Shown here piece by piece: positions 18,349 through 35,438 of a stretch of DNA of 35,788 nt. The translations under genes were made by a program, and so were the position numbers. Position 1 is the first letter of the stretch, and every line of letters begins with the position of its first letter. Origin of the DNA: a virus; IMG/VR virus record IMGVR_UViG_3300030380_000777, positions 2,623-38,410 of that record; one strand, 5' to 3'. The notes under the pieces were generated by a model. That model searched no databases. It was not told the DNA's origin and saw only the letters and a list, made by a program, of their open reading frames with translations.

Positions 18349-20280
18349 TCACGCTGCCTCTATGTCCACAATCTCACACACACCAGCAGTACAGGCTAAC
18401 TCACGCCCACCAGAAGTTGTATCTTCTTTCTCAAACTCCTGAAGCAATGACCAGTCTACACTCTTTGGCATCTTTGTCAAGAACTCTTTGTATTCATCTT
18501 CATTTATGTCTTGATAAGGTGCTTGCTGATAAGTATGTTCACTGAATGGTAAGAAGCTGATACCAGATACTTCATCAAAGTGGTCATATACCCACGAGCC
18601 TACTTGCATCCACTCATGCTCCTTCACAGAGATGGTCACACTAGGCTTGTGTTCACAGAAATGACGTTGATACGTAAGCCATAGTTCAAGCTGCTCAATA
18701 GCATTCATCTGTGTCCTAGTGACTGCACCTTGAGGTGACTTCATTGGGAAGCTGAATACTGTTGTGCTATCTGGCTTCATTACATCTGCCTCTGCTGGTA
18801 TACCCTGTGACATAAGGAACTGTGTGAGTGGGTCTTTGTTATCACCACGTACAGTACGTATATAGAATGGATTATGCCTTGCATGAATACCAGAGGCTGC
18901 GTCAGTAAGTTGTGACACTGTGCCACTAGGCTTTACACACGTAACAGCAGTAGACTGCGGGATACCAAGTTGTTTTGCTACTGCTGCATTAGTCTGCACT
19001 GCAGTATCCTTTAGCAACTCAAGCACCGTAGCAAGTTTATCACCTGCCGTAGCTGTTAGATTATTATCCATAATACCTGTTAATGATACACCAAGTAGTC
19101 TTTCTTCCTCTGTATTGTCTTTCCATATTTTACGTAAATATTTGAAGTTAGTCAATGTAGCTTGAAACGTGCCAAGGATAGTAGCTAGGCGTACCTTTTC
19201 TTTAAGTGTGTCGGGTGTATCACTCTCACGTACAACTACCTCTGACAAATTACAGAACTGGTATGGACGTAGGATTATCTCACTGCAGGGGTTGCAACCA
19301 AAGTCGTGGTCTGTCTCACGTCTGCCATTCTTAGCTGCTTGCTTGATAGCTGACTGTCTGTTGAAGATACCACGTTCACCTGACTTACTGTCGTACAATG
19401 ACAGCCACTCACGCATGAACGTACCCATCTCAGGCTTTACTTTGTATGCTACAGAGTTATTAGCTAACGCACGTTGTCCTTCATACTCCCACCACTTACC
19501 TGACTTAGCATGAGCCATCTGGTCATCATTTAAATTAGATAAGCTAATGAGTGCCGACCTACGTACACCACCTACAACTACAACCTCACCAATCTTACAC
19601 ATAATGTCGTGACACTCAATTGGATAAAGCCTACGACCTGCTGCACCCTTAAACTTCTGTACAACAAACTCAAACAACTCAACCAATGGCTGTGGGCCTG
19701 ATGCCCTACCACCAAATGTCTTGAGCCTAGCACCTGCAGGACGTACATCTGATACATCCCATGCTGGTATCTGACCTATATATAGCATAGCAATAAGTTC
19801 TTTTAGAGACTTTGCCCATCCCGGTCTGCTGTCACCTACTTTTATTATTGTATCTGTACGATGAAAGTCTTCCGCTACGATGGGTAGCTTGTCTATACAA
19901 TGGCGTTCAACGCTAAAGCCTACCCCTGTACCACACATGAGTATGTACATGGTCTCATCGAAAGCACGGGGGCTATCTACAGGCACGTAGGAACAGTTGT
20001 ATCCACCTACATGGCAGCGGTCAAGTGCGGGGCCACTTGTCATCAATGCTCTCATGCTAGGCATGACACTCTGATTGAGTACAGCCTCTTCTAACTCACC
20101 TCTCAGTGAATCAGATAGCTTATAGTCGTGACTGTCACGTAGATGCCCAGCCATATAATCAAAATATCTAGCGACAGTTTCACTCCATGTCTCCCTTCTT
20201 TGCTCATCTTCTTTCCATCTTGCATATCGGGAAAGAGCAATAAAGTTTTGGTAATCTGTTGGTAATTGGTTGCTTATCAT
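18349..20280 (-). CDS. nrdJ: adenosylcobalamin-dependent ribonucleotide reductase (class II)
   Basis: 643 aa, close to the monomeric Lactobacillus leichmannii-type RTPR. Visible residues: N95-C96 in GGYNCSYVPVDSP, MCGTGVGFSVE, FGCNPCSEIILRPYQFCNL (Cys332 radical site, Glu334, Cys343 pairing with Cys96), AVTCVKPSGTVSQL, and the C-terminal re-reduction pair CTAGVC (Cys630/Cys635, the same spacing as in L. leichmannii). It reduces ribonucleotides to deoxyribonucleotides using B12, so the host must supply cobalamin. Ribosome site GGAG lies in the preceding small gene. No intein is seen. Confidence 0.95.
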   Translation of the reverse strand: MISNQLPTDYQNFIALSRYARWKEDEQRRETWSETVARYFDYMAGHLRDSHDYKLSDSLRGELEEAVLNQSVMPSMRALMTSGPALDRCHVGGYNCSYVPVDSPRAFDETMYILMCGTGVGFSVERHCIDKLPIVAEDFHRTDTIIKVGDSRPGWAKSLKELIAMLYIGQIPAWDVSDVRPAGARLKTFGGRASGPQPLVELFEFVVQKFKGAAGRRLYPIECHDIMCKIGEVVVVGGVRRSALISLSNLNDDQMAHAKSGKWWEYEGQRALANNSVAYKVKPEMGTFMREWLSLYDSKSGERGIFNRQSAIKQAAKNGRRETDHDFGCNPCSEIILRPYQFCNLSEVVVRESDTPDTLKEKVRLATILGTFQATLTNFKYLRKIWKDNTEEERLLGVSLTGIMDNNLTATAGDKLATVLELLKDTAVQTNAAVAKQLGIPQSTAVTCVKPSGTVSQLTDAASGIHARHNPFYIRTVRGDNKDPLTQFLMSQGIPAEADVMKPDSTTVFSFPMKSPQGAVTRTQMNAIEQLELWLTYQRHFCEHKPSVTISVKEHEWMQVGSWVYDHFDEVSGISFLPFSEHTYQQAPYQDINEDEYKEFLTKMPKSVDWSLLQEFEKEDTTSGGRELACTAGVCEIVDIEAA

Positions 20281-23306: not shown

Positions 23307-23335
23307 GTTATATCAGGTTACATCCTTAGTGTCAA
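23307..23335 (-). promoter_or_regulatory. leftward sigma70-type promoter inside the end of polA
   Basis: Read on the - strand: TTGACA (23335-23330), 17 bp, TATAAC (23312-23307), with TGA directly before the -10 (extended -10). The -35 and spacer overlap the last codons of the DNA polymerase gene. It would start transcription about 25 bases before the SSB-like gene. The same CTGATATAAC block recurs at 29595. Confidence 0.78.
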
Positions 23336-25355
23336 GCCAATTCGGACCTATTTTTGCTTCTAAAAGCAAAGGAACATTAAAATTAATAGCCCATCTAGTA
23401 TTAATAAGTTCAGGTAGTGCATCATTAGTAATGTCTATCACCTTGATAACCTGCGCTTCTTCGTCAGGATGTACATCAATAACAATACTGTCATGTACTG
23501 TATTCACTATACACGATTTCATACCTTTAAGCAAGGCATCAATGTGTAATAATGCAATAGGAACTACATCTGCTGTAGCGAATGATTGCACAGGGTAATT
23601 CTTTATCTGAGTAAAGTGAGAAACACGCCCTGTAGACTTACGCACCACATCAGGGAACGCAAACTCTCTACCACTAGGCGTAGTTATCTTTCTCGTGTTC
23701 ACAGCTTCTTTAGCCAGTCGGGTGTGCCAATCTGCGACCCCTTTGTATTTTGCTGTGAAGTGTTCGTAGTAGGCTGCTTCGGCTTTGCTTCGTCCGTATC
23801 CTGTTGCCCCGTAAAGGGGCGCAAATGTGTGTGCCTTTGCATCCTGTCTATTCGTAGGCTGACCAGCTTCACTAATAACTTTAGCGGTGTATGCGTGTAC
23901 ATCAAATCCAGTAGAAACTTCTTCAATTGCAACTCCATCTTGTGATAAGTAAGCGGCAGTACGAAACTCAAGCTGCGCAAAGTCAGCTTCCATTATCTTA
24001 CCACCTTCAAATCGTGACACAAATACTTTCTTTACAGGGAACGTGCCGCCACGTGGCATATTCTGCATATTAGGGTCTGCACCAGAAAACCTGCCAGTAG
24101 CAGTGCGGTGTTGTAATAACCTCACGTGCAGCAAGCCATCCTGCTTAGTATGTAAACTAATACCATCAACAAAGGATGACAGGTAGGTATCTACAGCAGA
24201 TAGCCTACGTACCTTAGATAAAAAGTCAACTGCGTCAGTCATACCTTTAGACTTTGCCCCTGCTTCAAGTAACTCTAAGTTTTGCTTGCTGGTGGAGAAG
24301 CCATTGGCACTTGCCCACTTAGGTGATGGTGGCTTGAACTTTAAGCCAGCAAGTTTATCACTAGGAGTGAGCGTAAACCCAAGTGTATCACAGTTAGTAC
24401 ACCTACTTGGTTTTGCGAAAGGCTCTCCATTCTTCTTAGTTTTTCTTATATAACCTGTGCCGTTACACGTGGAACATTGTTCTGCCACTGTGCGGTACAA
24501 CTTTGTAGTACCACCAGCAATCAAGCTACGGAAGTCTGCATCATCCATATATGGGTCAATAGCGTTGCCCCAATATTGTTTGTCCAGTACCTTACGGCTA
24601 TAGATAACCCAAGACAATTGCTCCGGGCTATTTAGATTTATAGGTGTATCACCCATCAGCTTACGTACATGAGCCTGTAAGTCATTAGTAAGTTGTAACT
24701 TCTCCTGCTCAAATTCGTTACGCACTTCCTCTAGTTTAGATAAATCAACGGCAAAGCCTGTCTGATATATCTTGGTCAGGCATTTAGCCACACGGTTAGT
24801 CAGTCTTGCTGTAGACAACAGACCTGCATCAGCAGGTGTATTTAGTCTGTACCATAGTTTATCAGCAAGCTGCTGTGTAGCGTGAAGGTCAGCAGATAGA
24901 TACTCAGTCAGTTCATCTAGCGGAATATCACGTGTGCTATAACCCTTCTTAAAGTACTCCTTCAGTGTGTCCTGTTTCTTAGTATCTAAGTCGTAGCGTT
25001 CTGCACAAGCCTCTAATGATAAAGGCTCCTTCAGCCCACGCTGCAATACATACTCAACAAGCATAGTATCAAACACTGGACCGTCATACTTAAAGCCAGA
25101 TTCCCATAGCCATAATAAATCATGGGCTACGTTATGGCATATGAGTACGGTAGCGTGGTCAAGATACCACTGCACACGGTCACTATAATCACGCCTACTA
25201 ATATGCTCATCATGGTCAAATGGAAAGTGCTGCTCTACACCTTGGTCAGTCAGTACACCCACCATAGTCAATGAGTTGTCAGGCTCAAAGGGGTCAAGGT
25301 GCATCTTACCACCACGATGTGTGACAGTGTTCTCTACATCAAGTGTTAGCTTCAT
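23313..25355 (-). CDS. polA: family A DNA polymerase with DnaJ-like zinc finger
   Basis: 680 aa. 3'-5' exonuclease: Asp6/Glu8, CHNVAHD (Asn75, Asp79), YLSAD (Asp156). A DnaJ-like finger, CSTCNGTG ... CTNCDTLG (Cys294/297/319/322), lies between the two halves. Polymerase motif A is EADFAQLEFR (Asp458); motif B is RQDAKAHTFAPLYG (Lys507, Phe511, Tyr515); motif C is TVHDS (Asp622). Phe511 matches E. coli Pol I residue 762, so the enzyme has the Phe type. The finger insertion is the hallmark of HMO-2011-type phages. Motif C has HDS instead of the usual HDE. Replicative polymerase of the phage. Confidence 0.95.
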   Translation of the reverse strand: MKLTLDVENTVTHRGGKMHLDPFEPDNSLTMVGVLTDQGVEQHFPFDHDEHISRRDYSDRVQWYLDHATVLICHNVAHDLLWLWESGFKYDGPVFDTMLVEYVLQRGLKEPLSLEACAERYDLDTKKQDTLKEYFKKGYSTRDIPLDELTEYLSADLHATQQLADKLWYRLNTPADAGLLSTARLTNRVAKCLTKIYQTGFAVDLSKLEEVRNEFEQEKLQLTNDLQAHVRKLMGDTPINLNSPEQLSWVIYSRKVLDKQYWGNAIDPYMDDADFRSLIAGGTTKLYRTVAEQCSTCNGTGYIRKTKKNGEPFAKPSRCTNCDTLGFTLTPSDKLAGLKFKPPSPKWASANGFSTSKQNLELLEAGAKSKGMTDAVDFLSKVRRLSAVDTYLSSFVDGISLHTKQDGLLHVRLLQHRTATGRFSGADPNMQNMPRGGTFPVKKVFVSRFEGGKIMEADFAQLEFRTAAYLSQDGVAIEEVSTGFDVHAYTAKVISEAGQPTNRQDAKAHTFAPLYGATGYGRSKAEAAYYEHFTAKYKGVADWHTRLAKEAVNTRKITTPSGREFAFPDVVRKSTGRVSHFTQIKNYPVQSFATADVVPIALLHIDALLKGMKSCIVNTVHDSIVIDVHPDEEAQVIKVIDITNDALPELINTRWAINFNVPLLLEAKIGPNWLDTKDVT

Positions 25356-26578
25356 CCATGATACCTCGCTGTTTGATAGTCTAGTTCAACATCTATTATG
25401 CCATGCCAACCATTAAGTTTGTTTTTAACAATATTAATATTACGTATTGGGCTATCTTCCTTTTCCCCTTCTACTTTTGTAGGGGGTTTACCAATCAAAA
25501 TCATTAGGTCAGCTTCAGCAGCCTTACCTGTACGTGAACCTTCCATCATGGATTGATTAAGCTGTGACCTACCCTCTGCATCAGCAGATAACTGTGACAT
25601 ATAAAATACGGCACAGTCATAGTTCTTAGCAATCTGCCTAGCATAGATGGCACAAGCCTTGAGTGCCTCATCAGGTCTGGCATAGTTACCTGCCACACCA
25701 AACTTATCACCCATATCTAATACAAGTATATCAGGGTTCTCCGATTTACATACAGATTCAACCCATGCCATGTCTCTGCCACCTGCATCTTTAATCTTGA
25801 TGTTCTTCATCACAGGTTCATACATAGCTTTAGCTTTACCCATGTTGCCCTTCACTTCACGGGCAGACATACCAGCAGCAGCAGTCAAATACCTAGCACC
25901 CACACGGTGAGTAGGTTCTTCATTACATAAGATAATGCACTTAGCACCCTGATGAGCAAAACCACCCGGCGCAGCAATCAAGCTGGCATGGAACGATGTC
26001 TTACCTGTGTTGGGTCTAGCACCTACCTCAATAAGCTGACCACCAGATACACCTTCGACCAGCCGTGTTACAGATGGAATGTTGAATGCCCACTTAGCTT
26101 CTAGTTCAGCTTTAGCCATGAGTGTTTCAATCGTAATGTCATCCCATTCAATGTTGAGGTTAGGTATGAAGTCATCTCCATATGCTTCAAGTAGATTACG
26201 TAACTTCTCAAGTGTATTGCCATCTCCATTGACCATATCAAAACCAATGTTAGCTACGTCCTCTCCTATAACCTGTTGAAATAATTTAGATAACACCTCT
26301 TGTGCTACATCACTACCCATAGGCTGCTCACGCTTTATCTGTCCAAACAAACTGTGATAAGATGCTTTTTGTGCCGTAGTAAGTGTAGGATTGTTTGACA
26401 TAAACAACGCCTCTATCTCATCAGGCAACACAGAACGCTCATACCTATCCATAGCATCATCAATACAAACTTTAATCTTACGAACATCTGTACTAAATAA
26501 TCTGTTAGGACATTTGGAACCACGATGCTCATCGTAGAACTCTTTATCCATTAAACTTCTAATCAGTGATAATTCCAT
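25352..26578 (-). CDS. DnaB-like replicative helicase
   Basis: 408 aa. The N-terminal half is helical and weakly conserved. The RecA-like ATPase core begins near residue 165: GARPNTGKTS Walker A (Lys193), CNEEPTHRVGARYL, NPDILVLDMGD Walker B (Asp288), FYMSQLSADAEGR (Gln329) and GSRTGKAAEADLMILI. It acts as a ring helicase ahead of the polymerase. The stop overlaps the polymerase start by ATGA and the start overlaps the primase by 20 bases. In T7 these two activities are fused in gp4; here they are separate proteins. Confidence 0.92.
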   Translation of the reverse strand: MELSLIRSLMDKEFYDEHRGSKCPNRLFSTDVRKIKVCIDDAMDRYERSVLPDEIEALFMSNNPTLTTAQKASYHSLFGQIKREQPMGSDVAQEVLSKLFQQVIGEDVANIGFDMVNGDGNTLEKLRNLLEAYGDDFIPNLNIEWDDITIETLMAKAELEAKWAFNIPSVTRLVEGVSGGQLIEVGARPNTGKTSFHASLIAAPGGFAHQGAKCIILCNEEPTHRVGARYLTAAAGMSAREVKGNMGKAKAMYEPVMKNIKIKDAGGRDMAWVESVCKSENPDILVLDMGDKFGVAGNYARPDEALKACAIYARQIAKNYDCAVFYMSQLSADAEGRSQLNQSMMEGSRTGKAAEADLMILIGKPPTKVEGEKEDSPIRNINIVKNKLNGWHGIIDVELDYQTARYHG

Positions 26579-27329
26579 TTAGCTTCTCCATATCTTCAGG
26601 GTTACGATATTTCAAATCATCAGTCAATTTAAGAACACGAACATCGTTTACATATCCTCTTAACTCTTTTGCCATTAGCAATGTCTTCGGTAGCGCATCG
26701 GGGTCTAACGCTATGACTGCTGTTGAGAACTGTGCAAGATACCTTTTATGCGATTCTTGCAGAGATGTTCCAAGTATCGCAACCCCGACAAAGTTACCGT
26801 AACCAACAACGGCTGCACTCACACAGTCCTCAACAACTACTGCGACTTTACCACAACCAACGGTATAAGGCAAGCCACTTTTTCCATATCTTTTCCATTT
26901 AGGTAAACGCTGACCAGATAACGACCTACCTGTACCATCTACCATTTTACCTTCATGTATGATAGGAAACACTACACGGCTTTCCTTTACATCATACAAC
27001 AAACCTAATTCATCTATATCCAATCCCCACGTAGCACACCATCTATTCATGTGTAGATTGTCACGGTGAGGTATGATGTACGTAGGTAACTCAAATGGTG
27101 TAGCTTCAGCAAAGTCTTGAGCATTACCAAAACCTGCTCGTATATCATCGACAGATAGATGAACACGTGTGCCACCCTTAACACCACAAGACATACGATA
27201 ACAATTCCATACAAGACTACCCATATTATTAGTCACAGTAAAAGTATGTTTGCCACAATTAGGACAAGCCATTCTCTTAGTATGTCCATTAGCTATATCT
27301 AACTCTTTAACTATATTATATATATTCAT
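26559..27329 (-). CDS. DNA primase (zinc finger plus Toprim)
   Basis: 256 aa. A zinc-binding domain has Cys22/25 in ACPNCGKH and Cys43/48 in WNCYRMSCG. A Toprim fold has VVVEDCVSA (Glu167) and IALDPDA (Asp209/Asp211), which bind Mg2+. The layout equals the N-terminal primase half of T7 gp4. It overlaps the helicase gene, so the pair probably forms the replisome core. Expressed from the promoter at 27363. Confidence 0.9.
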   Translation of the reverse strand: MNIYNIVKELDIANGHTKRMACPNCGKHTFTVTNNMGSLVWNCYRMSCGVKGGTRVHLSVDDIRAGFGNAQDFAEATPFELPTYIIPHRDNLHMNRWCATWGLDIDELGLLYDVKESRVVFPIIHEGKMVDGTGRSLSGQRLPKWKRYGKSGLPYTVGCGKVAVVVEDCVSAAVVGYGNFVGVAILGTSLQESHKRYLAQFSTAVIALDPDALPKTLLMAKELRGYVNDVRVLKLTDDLKYRNPEDMEKLNGIITD

Positions 27330-27362
27330 ATGTATATCACTTTCCTTTGCGGCAGTTAAATG

Positions 27363-27392
27363 CTTATATCACGAGTTCTTACGTGCTGTCAA
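27363..27392 (-). promoter_or_regulatory. leftward sigma70-type promoter before primase
   Basis: On the - strand: TTGACA (27392-27387), 18-bp spacer, TATAAG (27368-27363), with TGA before the -10. The -35 and spacer lie over the last codons of the integrase gene, with the -10 just past its stop. Transcription would start about 30 bases before the primase start. Same design as the promoter at 23307. Confidence 0.72.
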
Positions 27393-28262
27393 GGCTAATT
27401 CTGCACTTTTTCTTGTATTTTTCATGTAAGGTTTTACTGAACTAGGATTAGCGTGTCCTGTAACCGACATAATTTGTCCCATACCGACACCTGCTTCAAC
27501 CATTTCAGTAGTGCCTGTTCTTCGTAAGTCGGACAACCTAAGTTCTTTAGATAATCCTGCTGCATCCATCAATGCTCTGCCATACAAGGGTAGTTTTTGT
27601 AGTGAGTAGGGTCTGTACTCACCTTGTATAGCATATGGACGTGGGGCAACATACTTCTGAAATCCAAAGTCTTGTTCTTGCTGCTTCAACATCTCAAACA
27701 AATCATCTTCGATAGGCAGATGCACATCAGCATGACGCTTCGATTGTTCTATGTGAACAGTCTGTGTTTCAAAGTCGATGTTATCCCATACAAGCATACG
27801 CATATCACCTAGTCTCTGACACCATTCGTATGCCATGTGAGCAATCAAACCTATGTTACGGGTGCTAAAATCGCTGTAGGCGGTGTCTAATAGCTTCTGT
27901 ACATCTCCCCTACCCCAAATAATCTTACGCCTCTCTACGGTGCGTCTACGTATGTTAGCGAAAGGATTGAGTTCACAGAGTTCCATTCGTAAGCCATGAT
28001 TAAATACGATTCGGGTCACTGACATTATATGATTAGCCATGTGAATACCCTTCTCGCACCACTCATTATATGCAACTTTAGCTACACGTGTGGGTAGTTT
28101 TTTATAGTTGAGTGTGGACAGCTTTTCACCGTCCACCTCTGTGTTTAACATGACCCCAAGAAAGTATTCATATTGTTTCTTAGTTTCATCACGTAAGTTC
28201 CTGTAATCGTAGGAAGAATAGTAATCCTCAACTAATCTTTGAAGTTCCTGCTTGGATGCCAT
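27369..28262 (-). CDS. int: tyrosine recombinase (phage integrase)
   Basis: 297 aa, AAAGGAGATACTGATA before ATG. The N-terminal SAM-like DNA-binding domain ends near residue 105. Catalytic domain: Arg150 (CQRLGD), Lys175 (EQSKRH), Arg247 in LSDLRRTG, His270 (VTGHANPSS) and Tyr279 (KPYMK). The usual His three residues before the second Arg is Ser244. It should cut and rejoin DNA between phage and host attachment sites, so this lineage may be able to integrate. It lies inside the replication block rather than at its edge. Confidence 0.9.
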   Translation of the reverse strand: MASKQELQRLVEDYYSSYDYRNLRDETKKQYEYFLGVMLNTEVDGEKLSTLNYKKLPTRVAKVAYNEWCEKGIHMANHIMSVTRIVFNHGLRMELCELNPFANIRRRTVERRKIIWGRGDVQKLLDTAYSDFSTRNIGLIAHMAYEWCQRLGDMRMLVWDNIDFETQTVHIEQSKRHADVHLPIEDDLFEMLKQQEQDFGFQKYVAPRPYAIQGEYRPYSLQKLPLYGRALMDAAGLSKELRLSDLRRTGTTEMVEAGVGMGQIMSVTGHANPSSVKPYMKNTRKSAELALTARKNS

Positions 28263-29559: not shown

Positions 29560-29594
29560 GATAATTCTCCTTTGTAAATGTTAACTGTTGTTGT

Positions 29595-29623
29595 GTTATA
29601 TCAGAAAAAGTTTACGATGTAAA
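29595..29623 (-). promoter_or_regulatory. leftward sigma70-type promoter before DUF932
   Basis: On the - strand: TTTACA (29623-29618), 17 bp, TATAAC (29600-29595), with TGA directly before the -10. CTGATATAACA repeats the block at 23307. It overlaps the last codons of the tiny gene at 29612. Confidence 0.7.
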
Positions 29624-29668
29624 CCCCACTAATATAAAAAATATTAGTAATCCAATTATTATATCCAT
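29612..29668 (-). CDS. tiny hydrophobic peptide, 18 aa (second of a pair)
   Basis: A strong ribosome site (AAAGGAGAACAT before ATG at 29668) opens the frame MDIIIGLLIFFILVGFTS, then TAA. The peptide is almost entirely a membrane-length hydrophobic helix. It follows a second 18-aa peptide of the same type that ends 10 bases upstream. A perfect 8-bp inverted repeat with a 5-base loop (29628-29648) lies inside the reading frame. Shorter than most annotation limits; the case rests on ribosome site, composition and pairing. Confidence 0.55.
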   Translation of the reverse strand: MDIIIGLLIFFILVGFTS

Positions 29669-29678
29669 ATGTTCTCCT

Positions 29679-29735
29679 TTATCCTATGAGTAATATTATT
29701 AGTGGTATTACGCTAATCCATAGTAACAAGTCCAT
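29679..29735 (-). CDS. tiny hydrophobic peptide, 18 aa (first of a pair)
   Basis: ATG at 29735, preceded by AAAGGATAACAAAT. The frame reads MDLLLWISVIPLIILLIG, then TAA. Like its neighbour it is a single membrane-length helix with an acidic residue at position 2. Both have exactly 18 codons. It lies just after the 91-aa gene ending at 29741. Possible membrane-active or membrane-anchored peptide; function unknown. Confidence 0.55.
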   Translation of the reverse strand: MDLLLWISVIPLIILLIG

Positions 29736-29740
29736 ATTTG

Positions 29741-30016
29741 TTATCCTTTCAAATTGAATTGAAATTGTAGTGTATCCATTGCATCTGACAATTCTTGCAG
29801 GTCAAATGCAGTCACGGCTCTGATACCACCCATGTCAGGGTGCAGTGCAGTATCAAGCACAGTATCCAACAAATTATGCACAGATATAACAGCCGCACGT
29901 TGCTCCATAGACAACTTGGCTATCCTGTTTCTACGATTGATGCGTTCCTTCTCACGCACGTTGTGCCAATACTCTATTCGTTCATCTTGTGTCATGTTCT
30001 CTAGTTTTTTAGCCAT
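29741..30016 (-). CDS. unknown protein, 91 aa
   Basis: AAGGAGTTAGAAG before ATG. A basic, helical N-terminal half (EYWHNVREKERINRRNRIAKLSMEQRAAVISVHNLLDTVLD) and a short C-terminal helical half. No known domain. Overlaps the upstream gene by 8 bases. Probably an early phage protein. Confidence 0.55.
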   Translation of the reverse strand: MAKKLENMTQDERIEYWHNVREKERINRRNRIAKLSMEQRAAVISVHNLLDTVLDTALHPDMGGIRAVTAFDLQELSDAMDTLQFQFNLKG

Positions 30017-32167: not shown

Positions 32168-32183
32168 CGTGTTATTTAACACG
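32168..32183. repeat. 16-bp palindrome CGTGTTATTTAACACG
   Basis: Arms CGTGTTA and TAACACG flank a 2-base centre. On the + strand TTTTT follows, but no + strand gene reaches it. It sits in the gap between the small basic gene ending at 32187 and the 82-aa gene, so it may be an operator or weak terminator. Confidence 0.4.
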
Positions 32184-35409: not shown

Positions 35410-35438
35410 TTGACAAGCCCTATAAAATATGGTATAAT
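35410..35438 (+). promoter_or_regulatory. rightward sigma70-type promoter, perfect boxes
   Basis: TTGACA (35410-35415), 17 bp, TATAAT (35433-35438) with TGG before it. The spacer end and -10 (TATGGTATAATTA) are identical to the promoter at 1020. Drives the gene starting at 35642 through a leader of about 195 bases. Confidence 0.88.

Follow-up and report, generated by a model that had tools for sequence, protein, structure and literature searches.

As judged from their sequences, two adjacent open reading frames of only 18 codons each in a marine phage genome are real, conserved and unannotated genes, which represent two families referred to here as A and B. The two genes are independent cassettes, and the pair in which they occur in this phage is not the unit. 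The window, that is the whole stretch of 35,788 nucleotides analyzed, is part of a 38-kb virus record and comes from an HMO-2011-type marine phage; its part from position 20000 onward matches Puniceispirillum phage HMO-2011 at 75%. Taken as a whole, the explanation that fits best is that both peptides would have a role at the host inner membrane in early or mid infection, and we give this explanation an even chance of being correct.

The gene for peptide A (MDLLLWISVIPLIILLIG) lies at 29679..29735 (-) and that for peptide B (MDIIIGLLIFFILVGFTS) at 29612..29668 (-), each consisting of 18 codons plus TAA, with A opening as ATG GAC TTG and B as ATG GAT ATA. A starts 5 bases past the stop codon of a 91-aa gene without assigned function located directly upstream (29741..30016, (-)), and its ribosome site, AAAGGA (29744..29749, (-)), adjoins this stop codon; the ribosome site of B, AAAGGAGA (29673..29680, (-)), overlaps the stop codon of A, and 10 bases (29678-29669) separate the two genes. 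Downstream of the peptides follow a 276-aa DUF932 gene (PF06067; 28729..29559, (-)), which is the first gene of the replication operon, and the genes for an integrase, a primase, a DnaB-like helicase and a DNA polymerase (23313..28262, (-)). The initial annotation had described two 18-codon frames beginning with Met-Asp, each with its own ribosome site and 10 bases apart, and the ORF read-out agreed with this in every point; the strand, which had been left unstated, was found to be the minus strand. The pair had also been said to fill a gap of about 180 bases, and the flanking genes are indeed 181 bases apart (29560-29740; 26% G+C), but A and B occupy most rather than all of it. In such AT-rich DNA, hydrophobic T-rich codons are common, and open frames might arise by chance in a promoter region of this composition. 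However, when the region was shuffled 20,000 times with dinucleotides preserved, one such ORF was obtained in 2 shuffles and the pair in none, and homologues of both genes are intact and conserved. Chance ORFs are ruled out by the shuffles together with the conserved homologues, and we consider their probability negligible. When both strands were scanned, A and B were the sole ORFs of this kind in the whole window.

A profile search over all fetched loci recovered 20 distinct intact copies of A and 29 of B and none that was clearly broken, although strongly decayed copies could escape such a search; three non-intact B matches fell outside the B family. The frameshifts or stops in relatives that the initial annotation had named as evidence against the genes were thus not seen in these copies, and the synonymous bias for which it had proposed to look was apparent, with changes mainly at codon positions 1 and 3. 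Parsimony counts of changes at codon positions 1/2/3 were 32/1/27 for A and 44/9/67 for B, and 24/1/17 and 26/9/34, respectively, for codons without search-pattern constraint. The corresponding binomial P values for codon-position bias (A 9e-7, B 1e-4) are overstated, because shared ancestry beyond the parsimony tree was ignored and because the hydrophobicity filter or pattern applied to the loci favors T at codon position 2. The pN/pS ratio was 0.24 for A and 0.44 for B over all codons, and 0.50 and 0.70 over pattern-free codons. Less exposed to filter bias than these P values is the pattern of silent-only changes in A. In the 8 distinct sequences whose recovery did not depend on A patterns, only silent changes are seen at codons 3, 4, 5, 7, 11 and 12 (Leu3-5, Ile7, Pro11 and Leu12), TTA -> CTA included, and I, L, V, F and M replace one another at residues 9 and 13-16. 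The silent-only codons suggest that specific residues are required, beyond hydrophobicity alone. In addition, a ribosome site is present in all 17 distinct A genes inspected. Overall, the intact frames and the codon-position bias support the proposal in the initial annotation of tiny membrane-helix genes that are real and have been overlooked.

To follow the distribution of both families, 80 viral contigs carrying the 276-aa gene were fetched blind to the peptides. Directly before this gene, A and B occur together in L002-L006, A alone in L033 and L049, and B alone in, for example, L025, L037, L044 and L066. Sufficient upstream sequence was available for 62 non-redundant loci, of which 10 carry B, 5 carry A and B, and 1 carries A, so that either peptide is present in 16 of the 62 sampled relatives; since this is only about one quarter, neither peptide is essential. 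Moreover, on a quickly built tree for the 276-aa protein, at least 4 gains or losses are needed for A and at least 9 for B, which indicates that both come and go. In general, A and B are found together or singly, usually directly ahead of the DUF932-integrase-primase-helicase operon, and the lineage of the window retains the pair. When the pair was sought in related phages, as had been recommended, A and B did recur, but as immediate neighbors they were confined to the lineage of the window and its closest relatives.

Additional members of both families were supplied by pattern scans of the viral collection. All A matches (n=24) were 17-18-aa ORFs in the same kind of setting, as were about 34 of the 43 B matches, with the remainder being longer or unrelated proteins. 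A looser B scan, in which Gly6 and Phe10 were left free, returned among the matches listed the B relatives L148, L161/L171 and L169, all in the same setting and all with Gly6 and Phe10 kept. Among the matches listed, this looser scan also gave short Met-Asp-hydrophobic ORFs elsewhere, which are mostly probably unrelated. Three ORFs of 20-23 aa among the matches listed, L184:7386(-), L189:10510(-) and L223:6673(-), are likewise of the Met-Asp-hydrophobic kind and have strong ribosome sites; they are located on unrelated viral contigs, and some of them may be real tiny membrane genes. A variant with a Met-Glu start (MELLLWITVIPLLL...) is present in L089, L258, L259 and L262. A conserved family of 34-35 aa, MDILIPL(I/V)I(V/I)..SVK(R/K)FKPELW.K..SKFK(K), with one helix and a basic tail, was encountered on many marine viral contigs (L150:1070, L159:106, L162:5306, L170:7504, L206:4788 and about 12 others). 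In L170 it comes after a 2-oxoglutarate-oxygenase-like gene, as judged by eye; its PHROG match was weak, and the phage isolates searched gave no match.

A search of 84,980 bacterial and archaeal genomes detected no copy of A, and a search for the host via prophages found a recognizable 276-aa gene in no bacterial or archaeal genome of the collection searched. Similarly, neither a distant DNA search nor tblastn with a 22-aa B recovered A or B from sequenced phage isolates, although low-complexity filtering may mask matches in such searches. The two B variants long enough for searching matched no PHROGs family, the isolate phage records examined contain no annotated ORF of the size of A or B, and literature searches on phage peptides of this size yielded nothing directly relevant. 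Small genes in phage genomes have reportedly been predicted by Fremin et al. 2022 (cited in PMC11323111). These genes reportedly resemble A and B in being unannotated conserved ORFs far under the usual gene-calling length, whereas A and B differ in standing at the low end of the size range and in overlapping a promoter.

Both families overlap expression signals of neighboring genes. A nearly always ends in TAAAGGAGA, in which its TAA contributes to the ribosome site of the gene that follows. In the window, a predicted promoter (TTTACA-N17-TATAAC with TG before the -10 box; 29595..29623, (-)) that reads toward the 276-aa gene has its -35 box inside the last codons of B, and in 18 of the 24 distinct B loci, window included, the 276-aa gene promoter has its -35 box in the B coding sequence or at its end. 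A perfect TTGACA-N17-TATAA promoter is located directly upstream of A in 14 of 17 distinct A loci; in these, the spacer contains the ribosome site of A and the ATG follows 1-2 bases past the -10 box. The window's own A has no TTGACA-N17-TATAA promoter, and L007, L009 and L010, which are without A, have the same promoter at the matching place with a spacer that contains no ribosome site. When the usual distance from promoter to transcription start site is applied to the A and B promoters, their transcripts would miss the start codon of A or most of B. Since the local promoters would initiate inside the start codon of A or after most of B, both peptides should come from upstream read-through transcripts. 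As to the terminator or attenuator structure that would follow a regulatory leader, weak hairpin-T runs were seen by eye after B in the window and in L002-L006, and not after A. A hairpin, CGTGTTATTTAACACG plus T5, is found in the early region of the window (32168-32183) and in near-identical form directly past B in the closest relatives, L002-L006, and may represent a portable terminator. Near the end of the window, at 35410-35438 (+), there is also a 12-of-12 promoter (TTGACA-N17-TATAAT) with TG ahead of the -10 box.

The incorporation of the A stop codon into the next ribosome site in nearly all copies, and the overlap of both families with the replication-operon promoter, are what would be expected of cis-acting leader ORFs, whose translation couples to or tunes the next gene while the peptide itself is inert. 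However, the amino acids are kept as the codons change silently, and a tie to one downstream gene or operon was not found: A is kept ahead of at least five different genes (the 276-aa and 91-aa genes, an 83-aa gene beginning MTKKKEK, a gene beginning MNVLEEKF, and B). The end of B usually lies 41-73 bases ahead of the next gene, with no overlap between stop codon and ribosome site, and an Rfam search gave no match. Moreover, in arrest peptides the critical residues are usually near the C-terminus, whereas in A the N-terminal half is most conserved. A pure cis leader is disfavored by these observations, and we regard it as quite improbable.

In most B-only genomes, B is preceded by a Hydrolase_2 cell wall hydrolase, an arrangement that also fits a lysis-related membrane peptide, such as a minimal holin, an antiholin or a depolarizer paired with the neighboring hydrolase. 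A Hydrolase_2-type gene, recognized by sequence motif and in some cases confirmed by Pfam, was located nearby upstream in 21 of the 29 B-only loci (Hydrolase_2, PF07486, upstream of B in L025, L037, L053, L066, L069, L148, L161 and L169), B often begins 3-17 bases past the hydrolase stop codon, and IbsC requires no more than a hydrophobic helix of 15 residues to be toxic in E. coli (PMC8309996). However, the complete genomes with A (G001, G006 and G007) contain no Hydrolase_2, no hydrolase is nearby in the AB genomes and 8 B-only loci, and 11 loci have the hydrolase without B. In phylogenetically independent pairs, few of which were informative, the association of B with the hydrolase was not significant. 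Comparison of loci and complete genomes therefore revealed no consistent holin-type linkage, many B genes being linked to the hydrolase and A not. Like phage holins, A and B would form a small membrane helix, and B often adjoins a cell wall hydrolase, but they lie in the early/replication region. Described holins are, furthermore, much larger than A and B. A lysis cassette is weakened by the hydrolase-free A genomes, the cross-table of B and hydrolase, and the phylogenetic pairing, and we consider it unlikely. In other genomes, a pyrimidine-dimer glycosylase-like gene (a weak match just under the Pfam cut-off) or small unassigned genes are found upstream of B. Many HMO-2011-type phages have Hydrolase_2 in their early region, where it adjoins the replication operon, and others, HMO-2011 included, lack it.

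In size and composition, A and B resemble short type I toxins of E. coli such as IbsC (19 aa), which are near-wholly hydrophobic single helices of about 18-19 residues with no positive C-terminal charge (PMC8309996), and type I toxins of the Ibs kind would be accompanied by an antisense RNA. However, antisense promoter-like sites occur at background level only (in 2 of 17 A loci versus 1.6 expected and in 2 of 24 B loci versus 2.2 expected), which speaks against an antisense antitoxin, and no Rfam antitoxin RNA was matched. In contrast to these toxins, A and B reside in phage operons, have an acidic residue at position 2, keep Trp/Pro or Gly/Phe positions, and bear no demonstrated sequence relation to them. 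A type I toxin-antitoxin system is accordingly very improbable.

Among the roles suggested in the initial annotation, a function at the host membrane would appear to fit best; lysis would be the least favored, because the complete A genomes are without a cell wall hydrolase. Members of both families have 17-22 residues, an acidic residue at position 2 and no positive charge. This composition, one negative charge at position 2 followed by 15-16 mostly hydrophobic residues, predicts membrane insertion, and each peptide would form one very short inner-membrane helix. In phages of the HMO-2011 type, A and B occupy, as cassettes, a variable position before the DUF932-integrase-primase-helicase-polymerase genes. 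They would be translated from read-through of upstream genes and hence made in early or mid infection, a timing suggested by gene and promoter positions. They would then insert into the host inner membrane and probably act via residues beyond bulk hydrophobicity, namely Trp6 and Pro11 in A and Gly6 and Phe10 in B. Most probably, they would serve to modify or block some component of the host membrane, for example in superinfection exclusion or in the inhibition of a host membrane protein. Speaking against the host-membrane role, A and B are short for a full membrane span, the nearly universal overlap of the A stop codon with the next ribosome site also fits a cis role, and the location of B after a cell wall hydrolase, as found in the majority of B-only genomes, also fits lysis.

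HMO-2011-type phages have been reported to dominate in the ocean and to be widespread there (PMC9038755), and with 18 codons A and B fall below the usual gene-calling limits in these phages. That A and B occur beside differing neighbors suggests an ability of very small coding cassettes to move as units. More tentatively, the two families of 17-22 residues, possibly the shortest host-targeting membrane effectors known, might be exchanged among phages in the form of tiny cassettes. Such a cassette would include or overlap both the promoter and the ribosome site of the gene behind it, and fewer than 100 bases would then serve as promoter, peptide gene and translation signal at once. A and B provide a compact, testable case of phage membrane peptides.
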